Positions 4,521-40,150 of a DNA stretch of 64,000 nucleotides are shown here, piece after piece. The translations under genes and the position numbers were made by a program. The DNA comes from Acanthochlamys bracteata (taxonomy: Eukaryota; Streptophyta; Magnoliopsida; Pandanales; Velloziaceae). The notes below the pieces were generated by a model. It did not search any database. It was not told the DNA's origin and worked only from the letters and a program-made list of their open reading frames with translations. The stretch is taken from positions 7,892,495-7,956,494 of the forward strand of contig CM034133.1 in assembly GCA_019914995.1 (NCBI GenBank), read 5' to 3'. Every line of letters begins with the position of its first letter. The first letter of the stretch is position 1.

Positions 4521-5185
4521 AAATTTGTATAGCGTTTCATTCAACTTTTAATTTTATATTTTATAATAAATTTTCTATAACATTATACAAATTTTATCTA
4601 ATAATTAAATAACATAAAAAATTATATATGTAAAATTTAATATTTACTTTTTCTGAAATAAAAAATAAAATCATTTTTAAAAATATTTTTAAAATAAATT
4701 TTATTTCAATAAAATTTTATTTTATAAACACTCCCCACAACTTACCATTACTGATTGAGATCAGAATCTGAAGGGCTGAAGAGATCGTTCTTGTTCGGTA
4801 CTATTGAGTAAAAAATAATAAGATATGTTCATAGGGCAAGTCAGCCGCTGCAACCGTCCAGCTAACAAACGCTAAGAAAGCAGACATAATCTTCATAGAC
4901 GTCCGAGTTGCTGCTACACCGTGGCCAACAGATTCAGCAGGCAAACTGGAACACCAGCTTTCATATCTTCCCAGACAACCAGCAAGTAGCATAAGGTTTG
5001 CATGAATGACTTCACATCAGATCTTGCGACTTCTATTATCGAAGACGAAACAAGAAAGGTCTTGCAAAGAGGTTTTCTCATGCAAATACTCCCACGACAA
5101 TTGGCTCTTGACAAAAGAATTAGGCTAGCTATGATAATTTACATGATAATATACATGAATTTAAAACACCAACTAGCGCATTCAT
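4521..5185. other. Intergenic AT-rich DNA and probable SPL7 3' UTR
   Basis: AT-rich sequence runs to about 4735. The part next to 5186 should carry the 3' untranslated region and polyadenylation signals of the minus-strand SPL7 gene. The short ORFs here (4801-5114 minus, 5002-5226 plus) are not supported as genes. Confidence 0.45.
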
Positions 5186-8100
5186 TTATCTTTCAGGAGA
5201 ACCAAATAAGCACCTCCTTATGGTGACAGCAACTTTCCCTGCTCTGTGAGGATGTAGGAGGACAACACAAGCAGCGAAACACATCAAAACAGCGGTTATT
5301 ACAAATAGTGTTGCCCTTCTATTGAGGACTGTACTTGGAGAAAGGTGAATCCACTGCTCCTCTGACCATTTCCTACCCAGGTGTGTCAAGCAATGCCTCC
5401 TCTGGACAAGGTCTTTATCAACAAGTGGCATATGCTCATCATTTCCTCCAGAAGTTGTGGTAATAGGAGCATGACAACCACTGCCTTCTCTTGTGTCAAT
5501 GAGCTGCATATAAAAACGAAAAATTCAATATTGCATGCCATTCAGACATAAATAAGACAAGCACTCTCTTATCCAACACGTATAAGAGCACAAGAACATA
5601 AAAGAGAGTCAAAAACTTTATGGGAAAAAATTGCTTGCTTAATGTAGATTCAACAGATTATGCATTGTGGATTAGTCGCCATTGTTTTAAGAATAGTACC
5701 AACTAACTTTATAAGTGAGTTTGATGGCTCTGATGATGTTAGTTGCTTGACAAGTTTTAGAGTCTAAAGCTACTGGAAAAATCCATCAACAAGTTTTTGA
5801 CAACACAAAGAAGTACCAATGCATTACTTACCCATGAAAATTTTTATGAAGGTTCCGTGAGCTTTCTCATCTAAACTGGATTTATGATCTGATACTTCAG
5901 ACAATGGACAAACTTATCAAACTCGTAGTGGTAGAATCAGTATCTTAGAACAAACTCACGAAGATTTAGAGTCACATTAACTACTCAGTGCTAGCAGCGG
6001 AAGAAGATAAGACCAAGATTAAGAGTAGGTAATGTAAGAAATGGGAAGCACAGAATCTGCCGGAACAAAATCATGCAACTTAGTTATTGACAAGTGCGAT
6101 TAAGCTGACAGGATGAAAAATGGAAATACCAGTTATTGACTTTACTCGCCATGACATTGGAAGGACTAAAGAAACATTTGAAGGTTATAGGCTATGTTTA
6201 CAGTAGTAAGATATTTGCAAAAACTTTTGCTAGACTTTTCAGGAGAACATTATTTGCAAATTGTTGGATATAGTTTAAACGATTATACCTATTGCAATGC
6301 TTAGCACCATCCATATCTGGACTAGACAGAAGTAACCCTCTAGTTAAGAGTTTCATGTAATCAGGATAAAGGAGGCTACTTTTGTACTTCTTTCTACAGT
6401 CTTTTAAGCTTTTAAATTCCTCTGAAGAAATACCATTATGTCTTGGTTACTACATATGAGAGATGTGTTACACAGGTCCAAGATATATCCATATGATATG
6501 TCTTGCAACAGTTACATGCAAGAGGTTGGTGGAGTAGCCCCCTTTTTATAAAAAGTTAAAAAGCAACTTAAGTTTTAACCATCAGAGTACCAAACTACTC
6601 AATGATATAGCAACAAAGGACAGGAATTTCTTAATTCATTACGCAAATATCCAACTTACTTTGGCTGGAGAAAGTGAGAAGCAATTTGTGTCAGACCCTT
6701 TGGAGCGGTGCTGATCAAACACTCTGTTAGATGAGTTTCTTGACTCAAATTCTGCAGATGGAACTCTTTTATAGAGGATCTCCTTGGCACACTTGATTTT
6801 TCTTTCAAGCAGTACCCACTTGCTACCAGAAAGTTTAATTGATAGGTCGAAAGACTGCCTCAAGACCATCCTATCTATAAATTTCATTACTTCTTCCAAA
6901 GTAGCAACAAGTTCATACTGCATCAAGAACTCTAGTAAAGTAGTCAATCTCTGAACATTAGGTAAACTCAAAGTAGTAGAATTCTCATCTAATTCCTGGT
7001 CTTTAAGCAACCATGCAATGTCCAAAAGTAACTCTGACATTGCGCTTTGATCCAAAGAAAATAGCTCGCAGGAATTTGCACTAACAGCAGATAACTCACA
7101 TTCCGGTTGCACTGTATCTTTGCATATGGGTTTAGCAAATCTCACTTGCATCTTCTCTAATTCTGAACATACTTCTTTGTTCCCTATGAGAATGGGGATG
7201 AAGTTGGATAAACCAGATCCATTCTCAACCTACAGAAACCAAGACAAAGCTATTATGACATTCTTTAATGGTGTTGATGTAATACATGCTGATACTCTTG
7301 GTGTAATCTCAAAATCTCTCCATAATACCGAAGACAGAAGTACATAAGTTTTCTTTCCATGTTCTGCACACCTGTGAACTTTTTGCCTTTCATATAATAT
7401 AATTGAGGCTGTAGATGGTAGAGAAAATGTGAACAAATCTAAACTAAAAGAGAGTGAATCTATAGCAATGGACCTAGAGCATCTGGTATTAGAACCATCA
7501 TTACACAGAAAATGGTTTGTTTATGCATCCAGTCAAAAACAGTTCTAGCCATTGATTTTTCCGCTTATAAAGCAATGTCCACATGTACATAGATGGTACA
7601 TCCTCAGGTGGTAAACTTAATACTAGCTAAATCCTCAAGAGTTAAACTTAATACTTTCTTACTGTCATGCTATGCTAGAAGGCACACAAAAGTTCAAAAG
7701 CAAGACAAATCTAAGGCCCAGATCAAAGAAAGCTACATTAGCAAGGTGATATATTTTTTTATAGAAATATTAACAATGAAATCTGACTCAAACACACTCA
7801 ACAGATCACTTAAGCATAACAAATTTTCATGAACAATATGCAGAGTGAGCTACAACCTACAATCTGTGGAAAATTGAGCAATTGAAAAAAGTAAAAAGAA
7901 ACAAATTAACAAACTTCAGGAGTATCAATCAAGCAATCAGAAAGTAACTTAATTTCTATAGGAAACACAGGACAATCATCCATGGTTAATAGCAAGCATC
8001 AAGAAACTAGAAAAGGCCAGTCAACAAACATTTGGTTATCTCCATACATGGCTAACCTGCATATACCAAGCAATAGATACAGAAGAACAGCATGAGTTTA

Positions 8101-11100
8101 CAATTTGAATTTAGTCATGCATTTATAAATTCATAAGCAATAAACTATTCAAGAATTGCCAAAACAAAGAAAATTTACATGACAATTAATTATAAATTCT
8201 CTCAAAAAACGTTATACTAAATAGAAGGTGGGAAGTACATGCCAATGTTCCTGATTTGACAAACAAGTGAATCAACACTTCTAAAAGGAGATGAACAACG
8301 TTTTGAAGTAACAACAACCAAGTAACAAAAAAGGGCCAAAAGCACATACTTGAGCTGGTAAGTGGCAATAATCCAGTAAGAGAATAACAACGATAAATTT
8401 TACTAACCTCAATAAAGGCAGGCCCAAAAGTATATTCCTGCGTCCAAGATATAATTATCTTGAACATTTCGTGCTCAGAATTATGCTGAGAGAAACTCTT
8501 TTCATTTTCCATGGCATTTTCTTGATTTATGATACAACAAGAGTCATAAACTAGATACTTTCCAGCAAAAGACACAAGCAACCTGGCAGAAAAATATAAT
8601 GGGTCTCAGACTAATTAAAGGAAATTATTCAATCACTACTGCATCAGTATCGGAAATATGGATGATGCAATTTAAAGCTATTTCAGATTGAAGAAGAAAC
8701 AGATATTAACAAAATGTATGAAATAGAAGCAAACATATCAGAAATTAGATGAGATTATATAGTAGAGACTAGAGAGCAGGAATTACATAGAAAACTCAAA
8801 CAAGACGAGAAATCTCAATCAACAGCATCTTAACTTTGACTATCAAGAAAAGACATGTAATGGAAGAAAAGAAATGGAAAGGAACTGAAGCAGAAAATTC
8901 AGTATTTATGTATTGCTGTTACAGCAAGCAAAAGACTGGAAAGGAGACAAAAACCCAAGATAAGAAAAAACATCAACTTGGCTGATAAAAAACCCAACGG
9001 AGTATCCTCCTTAAGCTCTCTCAATAGTGGAAGATAAATACAAACTCTCACATTGTCGCTATTCGCTATTCAGATATTCAGATTTGAGTACATCATATCC
9101 ATATCAAGGAATTGGAGTTCTGAATCAATTACGCTCTGGATGAAACAAATCTATGTAAGAGCCCAAAAAATTAGCCAATCAGGAAACCTATTTGACATTG
9201 AAATTTATTAGCTCAACGGAGCACCTTTTGATTGGTGATGCCTCAAGCAAAGCTACTCATTTCCTCTAATACCTAACTGAAAAAAAAATTGTAAAACAGA
9301 CTTGAACATGACAGCTGAAAATGCTGAATGAATTTATAGAAGTCAAATTCTACACTTCGAAATACTGCAGTGCCATACATACATGGCACTGAGTCATCAA
9401 GATAGTTTACTTGATTAAAAAAAGGTGACTAAACTAATACTAACTCAATCACAAAATTATATCAAAAAGTGATCGTAAACAACTAATAATGATATGCATT
9501 CAAGATTGACCCATGAAATGATCAATTTTCAATACAGGACTACAGTATGCATCAATTACTTGAAACAAGAAAAAAAATACAGATTCTACAGTGTCTTCAA
9601 ATTTAATAACTAGCTGATCATCCATAGAAGTGCTAGGACTTGATTTGAAATAAAATAAGCTAATATGCTATTGATGCTAGGCAACATAGACTCACTGAAG
9701 TTTAGGTTGATCAAGATTGCTGCCACAGACCACAAACTCCATTGGTTTCCCGGCCTCAAAATACGTAGGATAGACATAGTGCAACCTTGGAACTTGAATT
9801 TCCATTTTAATATCTGTTAGTGTTGTTCCATCTAATTCCCAGAAAAAAAAATGAAGAAAGAGAGAGAACCTTAGTGACTTGAAACTAGCAACATCTTTCA
9901 GCAGGCAATAGAGTTAATATTTAAATCCGTAGCATGGGTACAAATAAATTACTTTGAAAATAGAAAGAAATTGGTTTTCTTCCTATATTCAATAACTACA
10001 AATAAGTTACACAACTAGCACTACATGCTTCTTATAGTCTTAGTATGCTTTGGTAAGAATTCTTTAATGCTTGCAAATCACCCTACAGTTTGATAATTGA
10101 TTTCAAAATAAAATAAAAAAAATGTTCAGTGTCATCTATCAACCATTCATAACAACATTTGCAGGTCTTTTCAGAATAATATGTTTCAAATAGTTGTAAT
10201 GATGACGAGTTGATCAACTTACTGATCAACAGTATTTCTAACATTTTAAGCGTGAAGACCGTTTAGGATTTTAAGGAATTGATAGCTTTAAAATTATGTT
10301 CATGAATCATCAATGATCAATTAATCCTTTACATATCCTTTTTAGTTTAGAACTGTGTTTCTTAGAATATTATGTCTCCCACTTCCAAACGATGCACTTA
10401 ATTGGAAACCAGTTTAGCAATTGCTTCTCATGTGAACAGACCGGTGTGCATTAGCATGACAACTTGGAGAAATTTTACAGCTATGCCATGAGGTGCATGC
10501 TATTGAAGGGGGAAAAAATTGGAAGTAATAAAACTTTCAGAGGTTGATAAAAATAGGAAAGTGATAATAGATGCAAGTAGCCCCAACTTTTATGCGCCAT
10601 AGAAGTTAAATCCAAAAAGTTAAGGTAAATAGTAAAAACCTACTAGGATTCCCAGCTAAAAGCATACCTTTTAGAACATGAACAATTGAATTGTTCAGGT
10701 AGATGAAAAAGTTCCCTTTTCCAACAAATAAACTGTCAGGTGCATGAATCAGCTCTTCGACATAAAGAGACACCTCCTGCAAAAGCTGCTTCCAGTAATG
10801 GATATATTATTATCCAGCTATACATGTACTAAAATATGCATTAAGAAGAAATGAAACTTCGACTTTACAGTTGCCAGAAGTTTGAACAGTGCTTTTTATT
10901 TTTCCTAAATGGTCATGCAGCAACAAGCAATGTCATACAATTAAAACATAAATATTTACTGAGACACTCACAAACAAAATGTTTTAATTAGTCGAATATG
11001 CTGTTAACTCTATCATTCCGATCCTAGAAGAATGATGAAAATCAAACATTGCAACAAAAAATGACTCGTCTCACTATTGGAAATGATACTCACCATACAC

Positions 11101-14100
11101 ATGCAAAAAAGGACACATTTATCTAAAAGTAATGACTCTGAAATTAAGTCAGTATGCAAACTACAAGATAGGAATAGAGGCTCAACCATTCAAGAAGGGA
11201 TAACTCAGTCTCACTATTTGAAATGATGACACACTAAATACTCAAGTACATGCAGAACGGGTGCATTACCTGAAGTTACAACTTGCAAATTAAGAATAAG
11301 AAAGGTGATTCAGGGGTAGAATCATTTCATTGATCTTGTACCTTTTCCCACATTAATTGCGGCATTGCAATGAATATAGTCAATATGGTACACCCAGGAC
11401 GTATATAACCTTCCAATTCAACAGGCATGCTAGCCAGCCATTCAAAAATCTGCATTTTGAGATAACAAGTTATTGAACTCTCCATTTTTTATAATAAGAA
11501 ACACAATTACAAAACTAATGCAAACCCAAAACTTAAGGAAATACTTGGTGACGGAGGCGCCTAGGGAATTCGGCAGGATTCCAATCATAAAGCTTAAATG
11601 ATATACGACCTGTTGGACACTGAAATTGAGAAATGCATCATTACCTTACCAAGATACACATGATATAGGAATTTAACTCCTAAGGTACACTGCTATGCCT
11701 ATTTTTGTGTTACATAAATGATAGAAAAAAAAAAGAAATAGCATTGTGTAACTATCTGAATAAGAGCATACCGCTGAAGAATAAGGATTGTTATTGTTGC
11801 GGAATGCAGACGAAGTAGTAGACTTTGATTTATCCAATCTTTCGTCTATCTGAGCATCCCCAGATGATGTAAATGAGAAACCACCGTTATCCTGAACATT
11901 GTGAGAACTAGGAAGGGGAGATGATGGAGATCCAAGGCCATTTTCTAACTCCAACAACATTAATCCATCTGTTATATTATTTCTTGCCATCCCGTCAACT
12001 GTTTCATATGTAAATTAAGTAGATAAGAATAAGCAGGAAACTATTTTAGCTATTGTATTTATGATGCCGCACCTAAAGTTAGACATGACAAATTAAGTAA
12101 TTAGCTTAAAGTTGCTAACATGTTTGAAATAGCAAACTATAATGTACCAGATGCTTATACGAATCCTTACATGTGCATATATTGTAAGGTTCATACTGCC
12201 CGTTCCTAAACTCTATTTATGTAATTATGGCACAAGGAACTGAAACTGATCATAATTACTAATAGGTACCTTTTGTTCCTTCACCATCACAATCAATTTC
12301 TATTACTGGCTCCTCCTTATGCTCCTTTCCTTCCTCAGTTATACTTGCAAGATCTGCAGGTTTCCTCCGCCTCCTTTTGTTATGTCGCTCTAATTTTCTC
12401 CTACAACTTCGCTTACCTTCATCAAAATCTGCCAATATATGAAACCTGAAATATCAATACATTATCAAGACCCTGGAACTTGAAAAATGGGAATTACAAA
12501 CTTATACAGAGTCAAGGCAACTATATGAAGTTCACCAAAGGAGCACAACATTAAAGAATGATCTTTAGATTATTGCAAGGTGCCAGCAAGTACAGCATAT
12601 TCAAAAGTAACACAATTTGATCAAGTATTATATCTGTCAATCCAGTAAAACACGAAGTGTAGTGGTTCTTCAAGTTCAGACTTGCTACAAACAAGCTACT
12701 CATTCAGCATAAAAAGATGAGGCAATAAGATATTTGCAGTAAAAGATGCTCTAGAACCAATAACAAGGAATATGCTCATTAAATTAAGATGCTACATGAT
12801 GGTCAGTTCAGTAAGTTCACGAGACCCATGACTCAACCTGGGTCTATTCTTTTAAGCTGTAGAAAGCTGCCACATCTCTTCAGGATGCACAGTTTCAGAG
12901 AGTAAGTGGCAACATGTTTGCAGTTATGACTCATGGCTTGCCCTAATTCCTAAACTCTTAAGCTGTCTGCATTTCATTTTGTCACAAGTAATTGGCTTCC
13001 TATCTTGTCAGCATGAGGTAAGATTAGTGACATCAACAATGAATGAGCATTTGACAAGTATGGAACAATAAGATAACAACATCCAGAGCCTAATATCTCT
13101 TAATTCGGCACTCAAACTCCATTATGATCAAAATTCTTGGCATAGTTTCCAAACATGCTTCTCCAAGCTGACTTCCTAGGCCACATTCTCATAACCTCAC
13201 AGCTCCGACCTCCAAGACATACAAGAATTGGCTGCTATTGACAAGCAAATGATGTGGTAAATTTGATTACGTTGGGAATCTAGAGCAGTCTTCAGAAAGT
13301 CAACGACAGAGATACGTAGCAAGTGATTTAAGACAAACATTTTGGTTAAATATGTTTACAACCATGACACAATTTACCTAAACAGAAGAAAGGAAAAAAA
13401 AAAAAAAAGAATCCATTTAACACATTGAGATACTCTTTCATGGATAGAAACCAAATTACTTATTTCTTCTTAATATTCACTATGGATCCTCTCACATTGT
13501 GCTCGATTATGTTTTCAAAATAACTAAAACGGTAAGAAATGTATAAGCTCTTTTAGTACAAATAGTGCAAATAACGCCTGCTTCAACAAGCACTATTATA
13601 GTTACTTAAATTGCAAGTAAACAAGCAATTGCGTCCTTCAATTTCTAGATCAAATAGTGATGAACAAACAAAGAAGTTGAAGTTCATTTATGTATGCATT
13701 ACCCACATTTTCTTGAGCTACATAAGAGCAAGTGAAAAACGTTTATTACTTATGCAGACCATCATGGCATTCATGTAACAAGAACTTATTGATCCTGAAA
13801 ATTCAAACTACAGATAGGAATGCAAAATTACACCATAGATCATATAAAAGAAAACTGCTCACTAGACACAGTCTATAGAATATACTCGAGTTTGCAGGAA
13901 TTAAGACTTCAAGTAATATGAAAAAACTCCATGTCATTCCATCACCACCCAGAGTAAATTGACAAATTTTGAAGGTGAGTTTTGGGTCGAGGGGAGTGAA
14001 CTACAACACAGGTATCATCAACTGTCGCTCCTTCAATCAGGCACTACTAACTAAATGGTAGTGGAAATTCCTAAGGCCCAATCATTCCCCTTGTAATGAG

Positions 14101-15288
14101 CTGAGGTTAACAAATGGGAAATGCAGTAGCACTATTTCCATTTTTGGAAAGGGATTCTGAGCTTCACTCACTATTCAGCACCATATCTAATATCTTTCCT
14201 GGCGCGCTGATGGCTTGATATCTCCTCAGACATACAATTCAAGAAAGAAGAGAAAGACCAGACAGGTGCTACAGAGGCTAGCACATTGTTTCCTGTCCCA
14301 ATTCAACATATTCCTCTTTTTGCTGTTTAGAAGGAAGAAGACATACTTCGCGTCAACATTTCTCTGAGCTACTCTGACCTTGAGGACTCTCTTTGTGTAA
14401 TTAGATGTAGTAGTAGTAGTTAGATTCATGTAGTAGGTCGCTTCACTATCTTGTATTTTGCTCATAACTCTCTTACCTCTTGGGTCTTCTTGCTTTCTAC
14501 CATAGTCACCCTCGGACTTTCTTCTGTATCTAACTTATATGTTGCTAACAAAGCCTATTTTCTCAATCAAAAAAAAAAAAAAAAAGGGTGAAACTCCATA
14601 AAAGCCGGAATCTTGCAAGAACAATAAAGCAAGAGCTACAAAAACTTATAACTCACTTGCCACACTGCTGACAGTATCTCTTGTTCTCACCATCAAGCAT
14701 GACAGACGAAGAATTAGCGCACTGAAGGCAAACCCTATGTCGTCGATGGTACCCTTTCAGCTCACTAATATCCACTTCACAATCAGGAACCTGACATCTC
14801 ATCACCACCGCCCTTCCTCCAGTAGCTCCCCCCCTCATCCGCTTTTTCGCAAGCTCCGCTTCTTCCTCAGCCGCTGCAGCGAGCGCATCGACCTCCGGGC
14901 ACGCGCACGGAACTCTTCCCGCTAAATAATTCTCGCAAACAAGCATCGGGTCCCGTTTCCTCACTCGACTCACCCGACTATTTTTCGCCGGCGTTTGTGC
15001 TGGTGCCGGTGCCGGTGTCGGTGTCGGTGCTGGAACTGGTGGCGCCAGATGATTCAGTTGCTCTTCATTCTGATCGGAAGAATCTAACGGCCAGGAAGGG
15101 AAGAGTTGATCGGTTGAAGTATCGAGTGCGAAATCGAGAAAAGCGCTCCAATCCCACGGTTGTTGATCGACCGATTCCATCCTGGTAGTAGACCGTAATT
15201 GATTCAGAACTGGTGGCCAAGAAGATGATGGCGATCGAATTGCATTATCCGAATCGGAATTCAAACTCTGGTGAATGTTTTCCTCCAT
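5186..15288 (-). CDS. SPL7: Squamosa promoter-binding-like protein 7 (copper-response regulator)
   Basis: SPL7 is the SBP-box transcription factor that binds GTAC-core copper response elements and drives copper uptake and copper economy. Exons in transcript order are 15288-14657, 12445-12270, 11998-11772, 11619-11545, 11449-11342, 10785-10668, 9831-9696, 8582-8408, 7229-6660 and 5503-5186. All have GT-AG borders and matching phases, giving 844 residues. The SBP domain spans about 163-240. Zn1 ligands are C165, C170, C187 and C190 (Cys4 rather than Cys3His, as I recall for SPL7/CRR1-type proteins); Zn2 ligands are C206, C209, H213 and C225. The basic nuclear signal [19 protein letters not shown] follows. 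The SPL7-typical N-terminal motif [11 protein letters not shown] precedes the domain, and a hydrophobic segment near the C-terminus ([18 protein letters not shown]) may be a membrane anchor. The start is the first ATG of the long exon 1. Intron 1 is about 2.2 kb. Confidence 0.93.
12446..14656 (-). other. Large intron 1 of SPL7, splits the SBP domain
   Basis: This intron interrupts the SBP domain between CQQCGK and FH, a position I recall as conserved in SBP genes. The donor is GTGAGT and the acceptor TTTCAG. I see no nested gene. Homopolymer A runs lie at about 13396-13410 and 14569-14585. The second could be the tail of a retroposed fragment, but no target-site duplication was identified. 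Confidence 0.7.
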
Positions 15289-16706
15289 TCTTGTTGTTCT
15301 TCTATCGATTGAACGAATGAAAAAGAAAAAAAAATAAGTTTAGGAAGAATTTGTTTTGAGTTTCTATTTCTTTCGGTTTTGTTGTGCGGTTGATGGTTGG
15401 TTAGAAGAAAGACGGAGGCTTAACGCGAAAGGGAAAGAAAGAATGAAACAAGAAAGTGAGCAGGTTGGACTCGGAAATCAGTTGATTCAGGAGAAAGTTG
15501 GCCCCACTATAACGTAAGAATGTCGACATGAATGCTGAGGAGAAGAAAATTAAAAGGGCAAACATGTCTTTTTATGTGTGTACGTTGACTGAAGTGCGTA
15601 ACGACGTTAACATTAGCTTTAAAATGGAGAATGAATGAAAAGAACTAAAAAAGTAAACTTTGACGAAGACTATGAGTAACGGCGTTAGCGTTAACAGTGC
15701 CGATATAAGCGAGGTATATTTGAAAGTATTTATTGACAAAAGTTTTTAAAAAAATATTTTAAAATTTTTAAAAAGTGAAATTTATTTTTGTATTTTAAAA
15801 AAATAATTATTAAAAATATTTGATAACGTCAAATTTTTTTGTATTTTTACAAGTATTTTAAAAATTTTATAAAAAATATATAATTAAAAAATTAAAAAAA
15901 AATCTCCAAACTGAACCGTTGAATGAATAATAAACTGCTTAATAAATACTTGCAGGACTGCGTATATACTGGAGTAGACACTATCTAGCGATTATTTTAT
16001 TATTAAGAAAACTAATCTAGCTAAATTTTAAATTATCTTATAACAGTATTAAGGATAAGAACATTATGTCATCGTAATGGCGTATTTAGTTTTGTCAAAG
16101 TAAATTTTATAAAATAAAATTTCATAATAAATAAAGTTCAATAAAAATAAAAATTTAAAATTATTAAAATATGTATTTAATTTTAGAGTTTTATAACAAT
16201 AAAATTTGGTGTAAAACTGAATGAACTTTAAAATGGTAATTAAATTTTAAAATCTTTAAAAAATTAAAGTTGGTAAAATATGCCGTAAATCTAATAATCT
16301 TTTTGGAATATGCTAGTTATATCATGTTCAGAATATTAAGGTACCTGGAAAAAAAATATAAAATAGAAACTACAATAGCGTGTGTTACATGTCATCTCTT
16401 GTCGCCTCCTGTATTATGTGTTAATTTTTTCTTGATGAACTCACCAATAAGAACATTATAATTTCCTTTTGTATAATTGATACAATTTTATTTTATTTTG
16501 CTTGTATGTTTTATTAATTAAATTTCTTTTAATGAGTTGAATTTATAAGAAGAAAGGAGACCATTATGTTTGGATTGAGAGTAATAGAGGAGAGGGAGGG
16601 AGGATGAAGCATACATAGAGTGCAATAGCGTACACAGAAGCCAGAAGATGCAATAAGACTCCAAATACGAAACAGGAAACAACATACAACTTTTGAAGAT
16701 AATAAA
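15289..16706. other. Intergenic: SPL7 upstream region and EC1 3' flank
   Basis: The first 200 bp or so upstream of the SPL7 ATG are purine/pyrimidine biased and probably hold its 5' UTR and promoter, but I find no decisive TATA box. The stretch 15715-16500 is AT-rich with A/T homopolymer blocks and no gene. The stretch 16530-16706 is the probable 3' UTR of the EC1 gene. Confidence 0.45.
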
Positions 16707-17756
16707 TCACTTGGGGATAGTAGTACTTGCAGGGGCATAGGCCTTGGAAGGCGCCGGAATAATATCTGCAGCAGGCGCCAACGGCGGCGGAGACGAAGAA
16801 GAAGAGTTTGGCTCAGCATCGCAGTATCCTCGGAGCACGTTGCCTTCTTCTGCAGTGAACCCAAGTGTGGCAAGTAATGTTTCTGCAGCCCAACAGCTAC
16901 GATGAATGGTGTTGATTGCACGGCAGCAGCTCGGACCGAGGTAAGTTTCTCCGTTGAGGAAGAAGAGAATAACCTCACCGGTGCATGAACGAAGCTCCGT
17001 CAGCGACTCCCAGCATTTCGCCGTCTCATCTGCTTGTAGCCTCACAGCTATGTTAGAGGATGAGCCCGGTAGCTGTGGCGGGCGAGCGGCAGCCTTGCAG
17101 TATCCACGCAGCATGTTGCCTTCTTCTGCAGTGAAACCAAGAGTAGAAAGCAAAGTTTCCGCAGCCCAGCAGCTCTGATGAATGTTGCGAATGGCGCGAC
17201 AACAGCTCAGGCCAAGATAAGTTTCTCCATTGAGGAAAAAGAGAATAATCTCGCCTGTGCATGAACGGAGATCCGATAGAGACTGCCAGCAGCGTGCTGT
17301 CTCGTCTGCTTTCAGCCGTACAGCCACTGTAGAGGATGACTTAGAGGATGCAGGAGCAAAAGCAACAGATGACTCCGGTAATATTGGCATTGGAGGCGGA
17401 GCAGTAGCGTCGCAGTACCCGCGAAGAACGTTGCCTTCCTCTGCAGTGAATCCTAAAGTAGTAAGCAAAGTTTCCGCAGCCCAGCAACTATGATGAATGG
17501 TGTTAATGGCGCGACAACAGCTCGGGCCAAGATACGTTTCTCCGTTAAGAAAAAAGAGAATCACTTCACCGGTGCACGAACGGAGTTCCATCATAGACTG
17601 CCAGCATTGCGCAGTCTCCGCCGCTTGCAATCGCCATACTAAATTATTGTTTCTGCCGGATTGAGCTCTTGCTGCTGCAGCATTAATGGCTTGCAGAAAC
17701 ACTACAAGTACTGGAACAATCATAGAGATAACAGAGAGCTTGAGCAGGATAGCCAT
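16707..17756 (-). CDS. EC1: Triple-domain egg-cell-secreted EC1-like protein
   Basis: EC1 proteins (ECA1-gametogenesis/prolamin-like family) are secreted by the egg cell when sperm arrive and activate sperm for gamete fusion. This intronless ORF encodes 349 residues, whereas family members are normally about 120-160 with one domain. Residues 1 to about 29 form a signal peptide ending in an Ala-rich site. Three complete domains follow at about 39-115, 143-220 and 236-312. Cysteines are at 51, 61, 80, 81, 91, 115; 156, 166, 185, 186, 196, 220; and 248, 258, 277, 278, 288, 312, so spacing C-x9-C-x18-CC-x9-C-x23-C is identical in all three. Each domain keeps the EC1 signatures LFFLNGETYLG and LGFTAEEGN. 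Linkers and the C-terminal tail are rich in Pro, Ser and Ala. No stop or frameshift separates the domains, and domains 2 and 3 lack their own signal peptide. A TATA box lies about 45 bp upstream of the ATG. Family assignment is very secure; a function for the triple form is inference. Confidence 0.95.
   Translation of the reverse strand: MAILLKLSVISMIVPVLVVFLQAINAAAARAQSGRNNNLVWRLQAAETAQCWQSMMELRSCTGEVILFFLNGETYLGPSCCRAINTIHHSCWAAETLLTTLGFTAEEGNVLRGYCDATAPPPMPILPESSVAFAPASSKSSSTVAVRLKADETARCWQSLSDLRSCTGEIILFFLNGETYLGLSCCRAIRNIHQSCWAAETLLSTLGFTAEEGNMLRGYCKAAARPPQLPGSSSNIAVRLQADETAKCWESLTELRSCTGEVILFFLNGETYLGPSCCRAINTIHRSCWAAETLLATLGFTAEEGNVLRGYCDAEPNSSSSSPPPLAPAADIIPAPSKAYAPASTTIPK
16821..17642 (-). 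repeat. Three in-frame tandem EC1-domain repeats within one ORF
   Basis: The domain copies lie at about 17642-17412 (D1), 17330-17097 (D2) and 17051-16821 (D3). The period is 105 codons between D1 and D2 and 92 codons between D2 and D3, measured at the first cysteine. Over the 67 residues from the first cysteine, D1 and D3 differ at 5 positions by hand count, while D2 differs from each at 11. The linkers differ in length and sequence. Confidence 0.95.
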
Positions 17757-17800
17757 GGATTTGATGTAGTTTTATGGATTGCTAAGAGAAGTTTGAAGCT

Positions 17801-17810
17801 CTCTATATAG
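17801..17810 (-). promoter_or_regulatory. TATA box of the EC1 gene
   Basis: On the minus strand the sequence reads CTATATAGAG, 45-54 bp upstream of the EC1 ATG. This places a start site about 30 bp downstream, with a leader of roughly 20 nt. The position fits a compact intronless plant gene. Confidence 0.6.
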
Positions 17811-18180
17811 ATTTGTAATTTGTAACTGCTGCTTTGAAAGATGAAGAGCTACGGGTGTAACACTGGAATTGGAAAAATGAGAGAGATAATGGGGTTTAAT
17901 TTAATTGATTATGCGGTTACAATAAGCATTTGAAGTGAAACCATTAATTCATGAAGAAATTAATTAAGAAGATGAATAGCAGAAGGTGGAGTTCATGGCC
18001 CTTGAGTTCTCTAACAGAAGAGCTACTTCATGTTTCAATTACTCAGGTTTAATTTGAATTCTTCAACAATAATAGTAAGTTTCAACTCTACTTGGAGGTA
18101 AGAAATTAATTAGGTAAATATCCCTCTTTTTACTTGAACCGGAAGCTGTCAAAAAAGGTTGGTTTTGAGCTACAAAACTA

Positions 18181-38331: not shown

Positions 38332-38740
38332 GTATACAATTTACTTATACTTTTAAAATTAAAAAAATTAAGATATTGTAAAAAATTTATAAAAAATATG
38401 AAAAATTATTTGGAATAAAAATTAGCACTCCCAAACACTTCCTTCGATATGCAATAGAAATATGCACCAATACATTAGAAAGAAAAATCTTAAATGTTAT
38501 ATTTAAAACTATTAGAATACTTTGCGGTTTCAGCCTGCATGTTAACTAGTTTTTCGATGGCGTATTGTATTGATAATCAACTTATCTATACTAAATTATG
38601 TACTATTTTAGAGAATGTTTGGAAGTACAGAAAATAAAATATTTCTGAAAATTATTTATTTTGAAATTTTTGTTAAACGAATTTGACCTTTTACTCATAA
38701 TATATATATATAGGATATGATAGAAGCACATGACATTGTT

Positions 38741-39107
38741 AGAGGCACATGATACACATGACGGCCAAAAGGGGTCGCAGAGAGATCCAAATTCAATTTC
38801 TACCGCTGTATTTGAAGAATCATGAGTTCAAAATATGTTGATAAAATTTTAGCTCAATCGTAATACGAACCAATCTCTATTGGAATTATTAATAACAATG
38901 ACATAAAATATTAAATTTGATAAAAGAAATATCTCTTTTTGTGTCACTTTAATCAAGAGTTCCGATGGAGGTCAGTTCGTATTCCGATTGAGTTAAAATT
39001 TTATCAATATGTTCTCAATTCACTATTATTTTTTATATCCAACCGTAAAGATTAGATTTGGATATCTCGCCAGCCATATTTGACCGACAAGTGCATCATG
39101 TGCCTCT
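38741..39107. mobile_element. Foldback element with very long inverted repeats
   Basis: The left arm starts 'agaggcacatgatacacatg' at 38741 and the right arm ends 'tcatgtgcctct' at 39107, its complement. Symmetry continues far inward: 'gttgataaaattttagctca' with 'atcgtaatacgaac' on the left matches the complement of 'gttcgtattccgattgag' and 'ttaaaattttatcaat' on the right. Each arm is about 170 bp with a centre of only about 20-30 bp, so almost the whole element can fold into one imperfect hairpin. The flanks are (TA)n tracts on both sides, compatible with a TA target site. No ORF is present. Confidence 0.8.
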
Positions 39108-40150
39108 AAAAATATATGTATTTTTATTCTATATATATATATATTATAACGTACAATTCACACCAAATTTTAAAAAAATAAATATATTATAGAAAGTTTA
39201 GTGAGAAATAAAAAATGAATTGAAATTGTGAAATGAAATAAAATATTTTAACAAAGATGTCTTTAATCATCCGATGAGATACTGAATAAAATAATTAGAA
39301 ATTAGTGGAATGTATAGTGTTATTATTAAAATTATTTATTGATGATTGTGACATATTGTTGATAAAAGTCGATCAATCTGATTGTTCATATGTCTCAATA
39401 AGTTTCTATTTAATTTTGCTTTCATCATTAGCCTGCGTTTGGCACTGCTTATCAAAAATAATTTTTAAATTTTTTTTTTTATATATTTTTAATATATATT
39501 TTATAAGTATTAAAAAAAATTATTTAGATAGTGTAGAAAAATTTTACAAAGTGAGATCTTTTTATTGCATATTTTTATTATTTTTTTGAAAGTAAAAAAA
39601 ATAGAGCTCATTTTAAAAAAAAGATAAAAATATTTTTTATTTCAGAAAAATTTTATTTTATAAGCACTACCAAACGCTCCTTGATTGACCAAGAACAATT
39701 ATCAAATTCTTATTAAAAAATTCTTGGTCAATAAATGTCTATGATATTTTCTATAGAATTTTTTTATAAATGTATCTGACGAAAATATGCAAACATATAC
39801 ATGTAGTCAACTCTTTAAACTGGCCATATCAACTCGTGAAGGGATTTAAAAGATTTGTTTTATTATCATTATTCTACAATGATAGCTAAATTTTTCTTTA
39901 AAACTTCAATCATATCAAATTTGGGATTGTTTGGGTATACTAAAAATAAGGTATACATATAAAAATTTAATGACATACAATTTATATATATTTTTCAAAT
40001 TAAAAAAAATATAAAAAATTTATTTAAAAATAAAAATTTGAAATAAAATAAATGGAAGTACCAAAAACTGAACAAAGTTTGTTTTATTTTTTTCAACATT
40101 ACATAGTCAACTAATTGCTTTTAGCAATAATAATAATAAAATTGGGGTAT
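39108..40150. other. AT-rich intergenic DNA around a family B MITE
   Basis: Apart from the family B element at 39431-39682, I see only AT-rich sequence with no gene. Fragments such as 'gattgtttgggtatacta' near 39925 resemble MITE ends. Confidence 0.4.
39431..39682. mobile_element. MITE-like element, family B copy 2
   Basis: The left end 'gcctgcgtttggcactgctt' pairs with the complement of the right end 'ataagcactaccaaacgctc'. It shares 'gtgtagaaaaattttacaaa', 'ctttttattgcatattttta' and 'ttattatttttttgaaa' blocks with the copy in the NAIP-type gene intron. Confidence 0.7.

Follow-up and report, generated by a model that had tools for sequence, protein, structure and literature searches.

A single open frame encodes three EC1 domains

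Does one gene of Acanthochlamys bracteata encode three complete EC1 (EGG CELL 1) domains on a single chain, and if so, how did such a protein arise and what might it do? The question was raised by an initial annotation of the window, the whole stretch of 64,000 nucleotides analyzed here (C8:7892495-7956494, in a 195.5-Mb genome with 20 chromosome-size contigs), which had claimed three EC1 domains behind a single leader in one uninterrupted 349-codon frame. The frame was confirmed on the minus strand of the window. From an ATG start at position 17756 it runs through 349 codons to one terminal stop ending at 16707 (CDS at 16707..17756, 349 aa plus stop) without an internal stop, and each of the other five frames contains 9 to 26 stops across the gene. 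A stop or frameshift between domains, the outcome that the annotation had named as counting against it, was looked for, and none was found in frame. As read on the DNA, the gene is intronless, a single open frame from start to stop.

A probable signal peptide occupies approximately residues 1 to 27 (17676..17756, minus strand, as are the other parts of the gene given below). The hydrophobicity peak begins at residue 7, the top five 15-residue windows of the protein all lie within residues 3 to 24, a helix is predicted over residues 2 to 31, and the cleavage site was placed by eye. The start codon and hydrophobic leader precede domain D1 only, not D2 or D3, in agreement with the single leader annotated. 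The mature chain consists of the following: D1, residues 42 to 117 (17406..17633); a Pro/Ser/Ala-rich linker 1, residues 118 to 146 (17319..17405); D2, residues 147 to 222 (17091..17318); linker 2, residues 223 to 238 (17043..17090); D3, residues 239 to 314 (16815..17042); and a C-terminal tail, residues 315 to 349 (16710..16814), which is recognizable in a relative on contig C11. Upstream of the start, the region at 17757..18025 is conserved in alignment with the C11 copy and contains a TATA-like TATATAGA at 17809-17802 on the minus strand, identified by eye.

Three PF05617 (Prolamin_like) stretches were found by hmmscan, with a total score of 168.8 bits (E = 2.7e-50; the cut-off is 22), and in a profile search of the DNA the individual domains scored 61 to 64 bits. 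The spacing of the cysteines (9, 18, 0, 9, and 23) is identical in D1, D2, and D3, all 18 cysteines of the protein lie within the domains, and Trp is present after cysteines 1 and 5, as the EC1 criterion in the available part of PMC8702097 asks. A 36-row alignment gave 21 invariant EC1 columns, 20 of them inside the domain, and all 20 are kept in each of the three domains. At 15 nearly invariant columns, D1 departs twice (M55 and N109), D2 twice (L78 and N109), and D3 once (N109), with N109 assigned by eye; the EC1 signature motifs were assessed solely through such conserved columns, not through published motif letters. The cysteine pattern, invariant columns, and N-terminal leader are those of single-domain EC1 proteins (PF05617), which also share the one-exon structure, according to the part of PMC8702097 available. 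Single-domain proteins are 84 to 171 aa long among the best 120 of 183 relatives from a search admitting approximately 68 to 217 aa, compared with 349 aa and three domains here.

A domain tree was built from 93 of the 153 rows; its 76 columns are few for that many rows, and the bootstrap was not fully settled. In it, D1 to D3 fell inside an EC1 set (91/92, not starred) in which every named row is a monocot. Among the matches listed, an EC1 protein of Typha latifolia had 61% identity over 69% of the query. A sequence search of solved structures gave a single weak match to an unrelated protein (E = 0.02), and fold comparison of the predicted structure with solved structures gave no informative match.

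Multi-domain EC1 proteins in other plants

The annotation had regarded multi-domain EC1 proteins as undescribed and had suggested looking for proteins with two or more EC1 domains. That check was run in a protein database on 146 proteins, comprising 26 matches (from scoring the 8000 candidates sharing most words) and the best 120 of 183 short relatives, for which the search admits only approximately 68 to 217 aa; a further search with 32 candidates gave 6 matches, all among the 26. By cysteine pattern, 4 of the 146 proteins, all four among the 26 matches, were two-domain EC1s, and Pfam confirmed two PF05617 stretches in all four (9 of the 26 matches were scanned). No three-domain EC1 was found among the 146, an absence that is not proof, since the searches were restricted to candidates and to short proteins. 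These protein searches have a visible limit: no Gossypium name occurred among the matches listed, although cotton EC1s with two domains have been published.

The cotton proteins, reported in the available part of PMC8702097 as intronless Type-III EC1s with two Prolamin-like domains, resemble the present gene in that an intronless gene holds multiple EC1 domains. They differ in having two domains and in belonging to a eudicot, and are probably of independent origin. In the literature searched, outside which most subscription journals lie, neither a published EC1 with three prolamin-like domains nor a multi-domain EC1 other than those of cotton was found. The claim of novelty therefore stood in part: two-domain forms were already in print and in databases, which reduces the surprise, and no three-domain form was found. 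The A. bracteata protein represents an extended version of a multi-domain EC1 form that has seldom been noticed, and the three domains are the new part.

The four database proteins are of several kinds. In P0001 from Macleaya cordata (266 aa), the tail of copy 1, read by eye, is followed directly, without another leader, by the mature start of copy 2, and the two domains pair with each other in the tree (98/68, not starred), which points to an origin separate from that of the three-domain gene for this database gene model. P0002 from Rhodiola kirilowii (243 aa) has two domains on one chain, each placed in a different EC1 group of the tree; the protein therefore resembles either a fusion between two classes of gene or the product of a joined gene model. 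P0003 (jgi) and P0004 (Carpinus fangiana) each have two EC1 domains per chain; P0003_1, P0003_2, and P0004_2 form a third group (100/97), and P0004_1 sits on a long branch whose placement is unsure. Provided that the gene models in the database are correct, these cases together with cotton suggest that multi-domain EC1 arose several times. A further five proteins, P0005, P0012, P0016, P0018, and P0020, combine an EC1 domain with unrelated ones (ribosomal L7Ae, glycosyl hydrolase 17, 14-3-3, and others) and are probably joined gene models.

Predicted structure and proposed action

In the AlphaFold model each of the three domains consists of five or six helices, with pLDDT values of 77 to 94 in ten-residue blocks wholly inside domains. 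The linkers are largely below 50 (most of linker 1 and, around linker 2, residues 228 to 241), and the whole-chain pTM is 0.40. Three separately folded domains on a flexible chain with no fixed arrangement are thus predicted.

In the parts of PMC12069490 available, EC1 is described as triggering movement of HAP2/GCS1 to the sperm surface, for which DMP8/9 are needed, and an EC1-like protein of Amborella as rescuing the Arabidopsis quintuple ec1 mutant. According to PMC9953686, this scenario of HAP2 relocation goes back to an assay in which synthetic EC1 motif peptides were applied in vitro, and the paper's own images do not support the DMP8/9 part of it.

A secreted trivalent EC1, in which each in-frame duplicated domain acts as an EC1 and together they raise dose or avidity toward the sperm, is the probable reading of this gene. 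We infer secretion, expression, function, and multivalency as follows: the egg cell would secrete the protein on sperm arrival; each domain would fold alone with its own disulfides and would act like EC1, so that the sperm moves the fusogen HAP2/GCS1 to its surface; and three modules per chain would deliver more EC1 per secreted molecule and, should the sperm carry a clustered or oligomeric target, would give higher avidity. Sequence alone does not discriminate among dose, avidity, and cleavage into units. Cleavage is the essence of one alternative, a polyprotein whose linkers are cut after secretion to release three ordinary single-domain EC1s with a dose effect only. The predicted disorder of most of both linkers would make them accessible to proteases, and the aspartic proteases ECS1/2 are released by fertilized egg cells, according to the available part of PMC12069490; the same source, however, describes ECS1/2 as acting after plasmogamy, not before, and by eye neither linker contains a dibasic site, so that a polyprotein seems improbable.

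Constraint on the three domains

A second alternative to the trivalent EC1 is neutral elongation, in which a chance tandem duplication was tolerated and the extra domains add nothing beyond one EC1 domain. The domain pairs are identical at 180 to 185 of 228 bases (79-81%), that is, they differ at 43 to 48, and the differences by codon position in the three pairs (10/6/27, 7/3/38, and 10/5/32) fall mostly at third positions. Nei-Gojobori dN/dS was 0.20 for D1-D2 and 0.10 for D2-D3; for D1-D3, dN was 0.05 with silent sites saturated (pS 0.75). Judged by these substitution patterns, the three domains are under protein-level constraint. Their closest pair differs with the measure used: by protein it is D1-D3, with 69 of 76 amino acids shared compared with 62 for D2-D1 and 63 for D2-D3, and by the DNA tree it is D1-D2 (82/88), a forced D1+D3 pair being rejected (p = 0.017). 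Consistent with neutral elongation, D2 is the most diverged in amino acids and carries L78 in a column occupied by P in 34 of 35 relatives, and multi-domain EC1s are sporadic (4 of the 146 proteins examined). Against it, none of the 18 cysteines was lost and each domain kept all 20 invariant columns despite the saturated silent sites of D1-D3, and neutral elongation is accordingly regarded as unlikely.

Origin of the three-domain gene

A PF05617 profile search of the genome gave at least 10 matches, three of them in the three-domain gene, distributed over at least 8 places. A broken multi-domain copy on C11 (L013:3383-4335) retains three domain starts, linker 2, and a tail of the same kind. 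It has no ATG in the leader, its first domain start runs into the second, and its last domain is split by frameshifts. In addition, a broken single EC1 domain lies at C8:7789962-7790204. In the tree, the three domains of the gene cluster with the C11 and C8 fragments in a single clade (100/99), within which the genome search found no second intact copy. Four further EC1s, on C13/C14 and C12/C7, form sister pairs (98/82 and 100/99, with dS of 0.54 and 0.64), of which the C14 member has Arg in place of the second cysteine and the C7 member is without an in-frame leader; C5 carries a distant PF05617 family member. Misassembly, whether of separate genes misjoined or of one gene stuttered, is very improbable, as a start and leader precede D1 alone, the C11 relative likewise has several consecutive domain pieces, and 43 to 48 differences per 228 bases, mostly at third positions, are far from a stutter.

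Since D1 to D3 and the broken copies form one clade within the monocot EC1s, the gene grew as its mature-coding part was duplicated in frame, and on this tree a one-domain ancestor expanded within this lineage. Linker 1 resembles the C-terminal tail by eye (AFAPASS compared with AYAPAST), which suggests that a tail was joined in frame to a mature start with no second leader. The mature part of a monocot EC1 gene would thus have been duplicated in frame twice, and the product would be one signal peptide before three complete EC1 domains on flexible Pro/Ser-rich linkers.

A broader reading is possible, if rather doubtful: that eggs in this lineage depend on a trivalent EC1, the three-domain gene being the only intact copy found in a clade elsewhere filled by single-domain monocot genes, and that several multi-domain origins would argue for a sperm target that is clustered or oligomeric and rewards multivalency. 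To our knowledge, how the sperm senses EC1 is still open. Natural one-, two-, and three-domain EC1s offer ready-made ligands of differing valency for distinguishing a dose response of the sperm target from a clustering response.

The C8/C11 duplicated block and the age of the three-domain state

The gene lies in a collinear duplicated block at 5065..18025 of the window, which matches C11:1492468-1476589 in inverted order and includes a piece of an SBP-box gene and approximately 270 bp upstream of the EC1 start. The SBP-box transcription factor piece near the EC1 gene is at 14653-15288 on the minus strand and has a counterpart in the C11 block. The dS between the C8 and C11 copies was 0.53 in the leader region and 0.68 between D3 and the last C11 domain; in block stretches in frame with open reading frames, it was 0.32 (6681-7106), 0.85 (14821-15075), and 1.07 (the overlapping 14965-15162). 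The first C11 domain gave 2.08 to D1, 1.02 to D2, and 1.09 to D3, far above the leader region, so the scatter of dS across the block is wide. The dS values, together with the paired copies, fit one large duplication, after which one copy per pair looks damaged.

Three domains may possibly predate the C8/C11 duplication. In favor of such an age are the three domain starts on C11 and the last C11 domain, which by dS is nearest D3 (0.68, compared with 1.41 for D2 and saturation for D1). Other observations weigh against it or are ambiguous. The first C11 domain is distant from all three at silent sites and grouped with D1+D2 with moderate tree support (82/94), and the D1-D2 dS of 0.64 is about equal to that of the C8/C11 duplication. 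The C11 body matches all three domains about equally (132/159, 135/161, and 138/163), which makes recombination between copies likely. Elsewhere in the window, C11 stretches in either orientation match an element at 38697-39148, as expected of a palindromic (MITE-like) repeat.
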